This document shows, piece after piece, positions 32,325 through 38,379 of a stretch of DNA of 38,379 nucleotides. Numbering within the stretch: position 1 is the stretch's first letter; each line of letters begins with the position of its first letter. The notes below the pieces were generated by a model. That model was not told where the DNA came from. It searched no databases and saw only the letters and a program-made list of their open reading frames with translations. Both the position numbers and the translations under genes were made by a program. The stretch is from an uncultured Pelagibacteraceae bacterium (GTDB taxonomy: Bacteria > Pseudomonadota > Alphaproteobacteria > Pelagibacterales > Pelagibacteraceae): contig CACDLR010000007.1 in assembly GCA_902553695.1 (NCBI GenBank), positions 1 to 38,379 of the forward strand, given 5' to 3'.

Positions 32325-32398
32325 TGGTGCCCCGACCCAGAATCTAACTGGATTCTACGATTTACCATACCGTTGTTTTGACATTAAACTACCGGGGC
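32325..32398 (-). tRNA. Divergent tRNA-Thr(GGU)-like gene, CCA encoded
   Basis: Minus strand folds as GCCCCGG TA GTTT-AATGTCA-AAAC A ACGGT-ATGGTAA-ATCGT AGAA TCCAG-TTAGATT-CTGGG TCGGGGC A CCA. All four stems pair; anticodon GGT with U33; T loop TTAGATT and D loop AATGTCA are non-canonical. Confidence 0.82.
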
Positions 32399-36588: not shown

Positions 36589-36664
36589 GGAACCCTGGTG
36601 TAGCTGGTGCGCACGAACGCCTGAAAAGCGTTAGGACCTGGTTCGTTTCCAGGGGGTTCCACCA
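36589..36664 (+). tRNA. tRNA-Phe(GAA), atypical D and T loops, CCA encoded
   Basis: GGAACCC TG GTGT-AGCTGGTGC-GCAC G AACGC-CTGAAAA-GCGTT AGGA CCTGG-TTCGTTT-CCAGG GGGTTCC A CCA; anticodon GAA. Confidence 0.88.
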
Positions 36665-37205: not shown

Positions 37206-37279
37206 GCCCGATTGGTGTAGTAGAAGCACGTAACTCTGTGGAAGTTGAGGGCCAGTTGCGAATACTGGATCGGGTACCA
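37206..37279 (+). tRNA. tRNA-His(GUG), lacks encoded G-1, A73, atypical elbow, CCA encoded
   Basis: GCCCGAT TG GTGT-AGTAGAA-GCAC G TAACT-CTGTGGA-AGTTG AGGG CCAGT-TGCGAAT-ACTGG ATCGGGT A CCA; anticodon GTG; next to hisS. Confidence 0.88.
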
Positions 37280-37306
37280 CAGTAAAAAAGGCTATGGTAA
37301 TAAAAA

Positions 37307-38379
37307 ATGACCAAAGATAAAAAATTAAAAGCAAGTTTACCCAAAGGATTTAAAGATAGGTTTGGGCCAGAATTAGAATTAAAAAAAAAGATAATTTCAA
37401 AAATTGAAAGGGTTTTTCTTAGTTATGGGTATGAACCGCTAGAGACACCTGCTTTTGAATTTAGTTCAAATATAGGCTCATTTCTAGCTGATGACCCATC
37501 AAACCCGATGAGTGATGTTTTTTCATTTAAAGATGAAAAGGAGGAACTCACATTAAGATATGATTTAAGCGCACCACTCTCTAGATTCATAGCACAAAAT
37601 TATATTGATTTAGTATTTCCTTTTAAAAGATTTGCTTGTGGGGATGTATTTCGCCAAGACAAAGCGGACGTAACACGTTTTAGATCTTTCACACAATTTG
37701 ACTCAGATATAATTGGAGATGCCAATGAAGCTCAAGTGGATGCAGAAATATGCAATTTAATTGCGGACTCTTTTTTAGAATGTGGACTTAAAAAGGAACA
37801 ATTTACAATTAATGTTTCCAATAAAAAAATTCTTCAAGGATTATTATCAGAAATTAAAATTCCTGAGGATAAGCAATACCAAGTACTTAAAACGATAGAC
37901 AAACTAGAAAGGCTCGGTTTCGAAGGTGTAGAGGAATTATTAAAAGAGGGTCGTAAAGATGGCTCAGGAGCATTTATAAAAGGATGTCAATTATCTGATG
38001 ATCAAGTTAGTCAAATAAAAAATGCAATTAATCTTAAAAATATAATTGAATTTAAATCTAATATGAAAAATCAATTAAGCATTGAAGGTATAAATGAATT
38101 AGAAGAATTGTACGAGGTATTATCATATGGAACAAATTCAGGACAAGTCCAGCCTAATATATGTATTACCAGGGGACTTTCCTATTATTCTTCGTTTTTG
38201 GTTGAGACAAATCTAAATTTTAAAGTAAAAAATGCCAAAGGGAAAGAAGTACCAGCAGGAAGTTGTGCCAGTGGTGGCCGTTATAATAGTCTTATTTCTA
38301 GATTTAAAGGTGCTGATTACAAAGGATCTGGAATGAGCATAGGTATTGACAGATTGTTATATGCACTCAATCAAATTAA
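37307..38379 (+). CDS. hisS: Histidyl-tRNA synthetase, 3' truncated by the window edge (not in ORF track)
   Basis: Translated by eye: MTKDKKLKASLPKGFKDRFGPELELKKKI...LRYDLSAPLSRFIAQN...FACGDVFRQDKADVTRFRSFTQFDSDIIG...ITRGLSYYSSFLVE...CASGGRYNSL...GMSIGIDRLLYAL; still open at base 38379. Confidence 0.93.
   Translation, partial: MTKDKKLKASLPKGFKDRFGPELELKKKIISKIERVFLSYGYEPLETPAFEFSSNIGSFLADDPSNPMSDVFSFKDEKEELTLRYDLSAPLSRFIAQNYIDLVFPFKRFACGDVFRQDKADVTRFRSFTQFDSDIIGDANEAQVDAEICNLIADSFLECGLKKEQFTINVSNKKILQGLLSEIKIPEDKQYQVLKTIDKLERLGFEGVEELLKEGRKDGSGAFIKGCQLSDDQVSQIKNAINLKNIIEFKSNMKNQLSIEGINELEELYEVLSYGTNSGQVQPNICITRGLSYYSSFLVETNLNFKVKNAKGKEVPAGSCASGGRYNSLISRFKGADYKGSGMSIGIDRLLYALNQI

Follow-up and report, generated by a model that had tools for sequence, protein, structure and literature searches.

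Can a tRNA-His whose elbow departs from the canonical G18 and U55 be the working, and the only, tRNA-His of a cell? This question is raised by a gene close to the end of the DNA analysed here (the window, 38,379 nt in full), which belongs to a genome of 787 kb in 49 contigs that is 69.65% complete. The locus has the order tRNA-Phe, a small cold-shock-like gene, tRNA-His and hisS, the protein names being read from the sequences. Relatives of the HisRS encoded in the window carry the names Pelagibacteraceae or Candidatus Pelagibacter, which assigns the window to SAR11. The features discussed below are the following:

32325–32398, minus strand: tRNA-Thr(GGT), with U19 and A56 for G19 and C56 (ARAGORN; elbow inspection)
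36589–36664, plus strand: tRNA-Phe(GAA) with a phage-like body, in the same block as tRNA-His (ARAGORN; phage comparison)
37206–37279, plus strand: tRNA-His(GTG), body type A (ARAGORN; Rfam RF00005, 47.4 bits)
37219–37225, plus strand: D loop AGTAGAA, read as A14 G15 T16 A18 (37222) G19 (37223) A20 A21 (numbering via relatives)
37238–37240, plus strand: anticodon GTG (ARAGORN)
37257–37263, plus strand: T loop TGCGAAT, read as T54 G55 (37258) C56 (37259) G57 A58 A59 T60 (sequence)
37276–37276, plus strand: discriminator A73 (sequence)
37307–38377, plus strand: hisS, histidyl-tRNA synthetase (HisRS), continuing past the window end (reading frame; relatives)

ARAGORN and Rfam are in agreement on the tRNA-His, and all of its stems pair, with T53:A61 closing the T stem. 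It has G1:U72, A73 and an encoded CCA; an encoded G-1 is absent, position -1 (37205) being a T. The initial annotation had claimed a tRNA-His here with G55, A73, T at -1 and this T loop and closing pair, all of which is seen in the sequence. However, it had read the D loop as G18 A19 and claimed a loss of G19 on top of that of U55. In the alignment of related tRNA-His, AATGGTTA goes with a T loop containing TTC in some and AATAGTTA with TGC in others, from which it follows that position 18 changed along with 55. The relatives thus give A18 G19, and G19 is retained together with its partner C56. The elbow is unusual in that U55 is lost, as had been noted, but since the change from G18 to A is matched by that from U55 to G, it appears compensated and not doubly damaged. 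Psi55 and its G18 contact are called universally conserved in reviews (PMC4810234, PMC7912444). Compared to the canonical elbow described there (G18:Psi55, G19:C56, T54:A58), the window tRNA-His shares G19:C56, T54:A58 and the usual cloverleaf but has A18 and G55 in place of G18 and Psi55. Judged from comparative sequence data, this gene is quite likely the working tRNA-His of a Pelagibacter cell, with a compensated A18:G55 elbow and an exchangeable body.

Covariation of elbow positions 18 and 55

From 119 tRNA-His and 112 tRNA-Phe loci of Pelagibacterales, some of them from the same genomes, 34 distinct tRNA-His and 27 distinct tRNA-Phe were obtained, and D-loop positions were counted back from A21. 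All 61 distinct genes combine either G18 with U55 (39) or A18 with G55 (22), and this rule holds across unrelated tRNA bodies. Five seeming exceptions among tRNA-Phe (loops AGGAGTA, AGGTAGTA) arose when any 'GG' of the D loop was accepted and vanish when counting from A21. The double change is also found on otherwise similar bodies, as between the loci L044 and L047, and in a sister genus, g2, in which two loci (L443, L444) hold a canonical-body tRNA-His that differs from its neighbours by the double change. On a HisRS tree (a single-protein FastTree in which many branches are weak and which is not a species tree), the elbow switches state at least 10 times in tRNA-His and at least 16 times in tRNA-Phe. 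Covariation without exception in 61 distinct genes argues against chance. Because 18 and 55 change only together, the comparison shows that the G18:Psi55 contact has been replaced by a putatively compensated A18:G55 contact, with G19:C56 intact. The comparison of SAR11 orthologs at positions 19, 55, 56 and 73, proposed in the initial annotation, thus gave A73 fixed in 119 out of 119 loci and G19:C56 kept, and the covarying pair is 18 and 55.

Within the tRNA complements of three genomes, the non-canonical elbow is restricted to the tRNAs for His, Phe, Thr(GGU) and Val(GAC). The tRNA-Thr(GGT) of the window (D loop AATGTCA, T loop TTAGATT) carries a matched elbow swap of another kind.

The pseudouridine at position 55 is made by TruB. 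A TruB domain was detected in none of 199 Pelagibacter genomes, including 66 with a completeness of 90% or more, nor in any of an earlier set of 11, but g2, a further sister genus (g277) and 14 out of 14 control genomes possess it. These domain searches show that Pelagibacter is without a recognisable TruB; therefore, Psi55 is probably not made in this genus. Still, the loss of TruB is neither sufficient nor necessary for the swap, since most Pelagibacter tRNAs keep U55 and since g2 possesses TruB and yet has a tRNA-His with the 18:55 swap. A full TrmFO was not found in 13 genomes of the family either, where partial matches under the cut-off lie in reading frames of MnmG length. T-loop modification may be reduced in Pelagibacter. 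TruB is missing in some Mollicutes, too (PMC4014445).

A mechanism along the following lines appears most likely. If Psi55 is not made, U55 would be less favoured and the 18:55 contact would be free to switch. A18 would then replace G18 and G55 would replace Psi55 in a matched contact, in which A18 inserts into the T loop and touches G55, which would keep the L shape, processing and use by the ribosome; charging and decoding would presumably proceed as well. The G18:Psi55 contact is important for the ribosome and for processing enzymes. The joint swaps in many separate lineages suggest that what is needed is a matched pair, not G18 and Psi55 as such. The natural swaps are ready-made pairs for testing this, and Pelagibacter, which has no TruB and counts among the most abundant bacteria, offers a natural experiment on the purpose of Psi55.

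Probable exchange of tRNA bodies at a fixed locus

At the tRNA-His locus the upstream sequence and the start of hisS are conserved. The tRNA between them falls into 13 body types, for which the HisRS tree requires 22 or more changes; for the tRNA-Phe classes it requires at least 19, to be read with the same caution regarding this single-protein tree. Close relatives may differ completely: the loci L055 and L111 have HisRS proteins that are 99% identical and tRNA-Phe genes that are 60% identical, and the corresponding values for HisRS and tRNA-His are 94% and 64% for L031 and L033, and 89% and 56% for the window and L011. Conversely, the type A tRNA-His recurs in L063 with 89% identity to that of the window, although the HisRS proteins are only 59% identical. 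When the genome G000 is compared to G082 or G297, His, Phe and Thr(GGU) are the lowest three of 19 to 21 tRNAs (55 to 70%), whereas most exceed 85%; between G000 and G082 most are conserved at approximately 95%. A canonical tRNA-His, taken as ancestral, is present in the family's other genera and in representatives of a different family within the order. Taken together, these sequence relationships show that the tRNA body has apparently been replaced repeatedly while G1:U72, A73 and the anticodon stayed fixed. Recombination among relatives may have exchanged the bodies in place, perhaps involving phage tRNA genes, too. A donor tRNA within the genome was not found, the best candidate being the tRNA-Phe of the same locus with 66% identity, which is near the chance level. 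A body unrelated to that of orthologues at the same locus is also the outcome of tRNA gene remolding or recruitment in mitochondria (PMC4783518), but the case described here is bacterial and recurrent at a fixed locus beside hisS.

Swapped elbows in viral tRNAs and the question of origin

The same 18:55 rule is obeyed by viral tRNAs. Among 460 viral tRNAs that were not picked for this feature, 422 have GG/U55, 17 have AG/G55 (many of these from the single contig L229), one has AG/U55 and two have GG/G55, the last two with loops that are difficult to parse. Here, positions 19 and 56 also covary (A19:U56, U19:A56). Pattern scans of viral contigs returned at least 120 stretches with A18:G55, eight with A18:U55 and seven with G18:G55, of which ARAGORN accepted 96 tRNAs of many identities for A18:G55, five for A18:U55 and no true case for G18:G55. 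With AGCTC-type D arms, to which these surveys were restricted, the same kind of pattern gave two matches in 385 genomes of the class, both in Pelagibacter, and A18:G55 was not found in an overlapping sample of 399 genomes of the phylum. Most isolate phages examined at first (L596, L598–L603) have a canonical 18:55 pair. However, the isolate Brevundimonas phage vB_BpoS-Kikimora has a tRNA-Met with A18:G55, and Erythrobacter phage vB_EliS-L02 (L605) has a tRNA-Cys with A18:G55 and U19:A56 together (D loop AGTATTA, T loop TGAAATT). The viral contig L229 (160 kb) carries several tRNAs of differing identity with A18:G55, as if a whole set had switched. Thus, A18 with G55 is common to the window tRNA-His and these viral tRNAs (L229, L392, L404 and the two isolates), some of which also have U19 with A56 or A54 with U58; the window gene differs in being chromosomal and apparently the sole copy, and the searches revealed no phage tRNA directly related to its body.

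Do the odd His, Phe, Thr(GGU) and Val(GAC) tRNAs, then, descend from phage tRNAs that supplanted the ancestral host genes at their loci and introduced phage-typical elbows, perhaps as tRNAs resistant to the tRNA-cutting enzymes of phage-host conflict? We consider this possible, but hold it only tentatively. It is favoured by the neighbouring tRNA-Phe, which has 79–82% full-length identity to phage tRNA-Phe (best E 2e-12), and whose phage origin is thereby supported at the level of similarity. It is also favoured by the type H tRNA-His, whose D arm and T loop (AGCGTAA) recur exactly in viral tRNA-Gly, -Gln and -Val. For type H a phage origin may be called suggestive; against phage records it gives short blastn matches only. 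Moreover, viral contigs often contain AGCTC-type tRNAs with A18:G55, a combination not encountered in the Pseudomonadota surveyed outside Pelagibacter, and the outgroups have a canonical tRNA-His. On the other hand, a blastn search of 50,697 phage records gave no match to type A, whose best viral identity of 69% compares to 66% expected from a size-matched sample. Likewise, g2 swapped its elbow on a canonical body, the anticodon arm of tRNA-Phe class P1 is still that of the host, and the direction of transfer may be either. For most tRNA-His types global identity to viral tRNAs is little above the size-matched level and was, therefore, not used as proof of origin. With no donor for type A, a phage origin of the window tRNA-His is unproven and constitutes a lead, not a result. 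With similar reserve, one may imagine a broader scenario in which single-copy tRNAs (His, Phe, Thr-GGU, Val-GAC) of the most abundant ocean bacteria were repeatedly replaced in place by phage-derived ones. Cellular translation would thereby have acquired an elbow code typical of phages (A18:G55, U19:A56, A54:U58), of which the cell had become tolerant through the loss of TruB. Phage tRNAs have been proposed to escape host tRNA-cutting enzymes via changes in the anticodon loop (PMC10264068); a similar role of the elbow is speculation.

Several further observations were made in the course of these comparisons. The window tRNA-Phe reaches its 82% with Erwinia phage phiEt88 and has T58 in its T loop (TTCGTTT). 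The contig L392, which carries a tRNA-Gln, contains phage-like reading frames, as judged by reading them. The combined D-arm and T-loop pattern of Val(GAC) did not occur in viral contigs. The D arm of type A has a match in the viral contig L169, which turned out to be GC-rich coding DNA and not a tRNA.

A purely vertical history, in which the elbow drifted under relaxed selection after the loss of TruB and fast point mutation with compensation produced the differences in the absence of any gene replacement, appears improbable. The absence of TruB from Pelagibacter and the double changes in place in L047 and g2 would fit such a history. Against it speak the conservation of most tRNAs at approximately 95% between G000 and G082, the pairs with 99, 94 and 89% identical HisRS whose tRNA-Phe or tRNA-His differ completely, and the recurrence of type A in L063 beside a distant HisRS.

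An apparently sole tRNA-His, its 5' end and its synthetase

We return to the reading of the window gene as a working tRNA-His with an exchangeable body. Its sequence is identical in two other genomes (L009/G397 and L010, SCGC AAA795-E22) and present as a variant in a third one (G003/L063). Exactly one tRNA-His per genome was found in 26 out of 26 genomes (completeness of 90% or more in 23) with a His-specific pattern that demands an encoded CCA, which the tRNA-His of G040 itself lacks. Additional matches to this pattern in G040, G118 and G190 have no tRNA stems and are not tRNAs. The tRNA sets of the closed genomes G082 and G297 contain a single tRNA-His, and G397, 91% complete, has just the one identical to that of the window. 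Thus the window gene appears to be the cell's only tRNA-His, in line with the earlier expectation that such a sole copy must work. That it is a degenerate pseudogene or a sequencing or assembly error, with the true tRNA-His elsewhere in a genome that is incomplete, is hardly credible, however abnormal A18 and G55 look in isolation, because the same sequence occurs in other genomes, the stems pair, CCA, G1:U72, A73 and anticodon are intact, each of 26 genomes has one tRNA-His and 18 covaries with 55. It should be noted that ARAGORN misses the type H tRNA-His of G082, G297, G694 and others (L096 and similar), which has the T loop AGCGTAA (A54, G55, U58); the G082-type gene was recovered by Rfam and a small pairing scan. 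Such genomes may therefore be annotated as being without tRNA-His.

The combination of A73 with a missing G-1, which had been pointed out as an alphaproteobacterial trait, is indeed already established for this class, SAR11 included (Wang, Sobral and Williams 2007, as far as reported in PMC3937112; PMC9976931). With these tRNAs the window gene shares the absence of an encoded G-1, U72, A73, GTG and a HisRS encoded nearby; it differs from what was described for A73 and G-1 in its 18:55 elbow and in a body that is variable between close relatives. New here are the matched 18:55 swap, the TruB-less genus, the viral tRNAs under the same rule and the repeated body replacement. A Thg1-like gene or domain, which had been suggested for inspection, was not found in 13 genomes, and later addition of G-1 by the Thg1 route is consequently unlikely, as far as gene content can tell.

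Like A73, G1 and U72 are fixed in 119 out of 119 loci, and all 119 have the anticodon loop YTGTGGW. This is as expected from the His identity of Caulobacter, which consists of A73, U72 and the anticodon, read by the HisRS of G-1-less alphaproteobacteria (PMC9976931). The HisRS of the window would read these usual positions. Repeated replacement of an essential tRNA with only the synthetase-read positions fixed is evolutionary evidence in favour of a minimal set of His identity elements. A derived HisRS motif 2 loop (Gly123) goes with G-1-less, A73 tRNA-His (PMC3937112). In the window this loop is FRQDKADVTRFRSFTQ, as compared to AGNG/AGNA in other Pelagibacter. The window's lineage has ADVT, although its tRNA-His ends match those of other Pelagibacter.

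A SCARNA7 match beside the tRNA-His (E 0.21, far under the cut-off) is due to chance. The gap between tRNA-His and hisS (37276–37309) amounts to 27 bases in the window and to ACCAAAAAATG in relatives (L012, L013, L016 and others). With hisS starting so near there is scant room for a separate ribosome site, and it is conceivable that hisS is co-transcribed with, or controlled by, its own tRNA.
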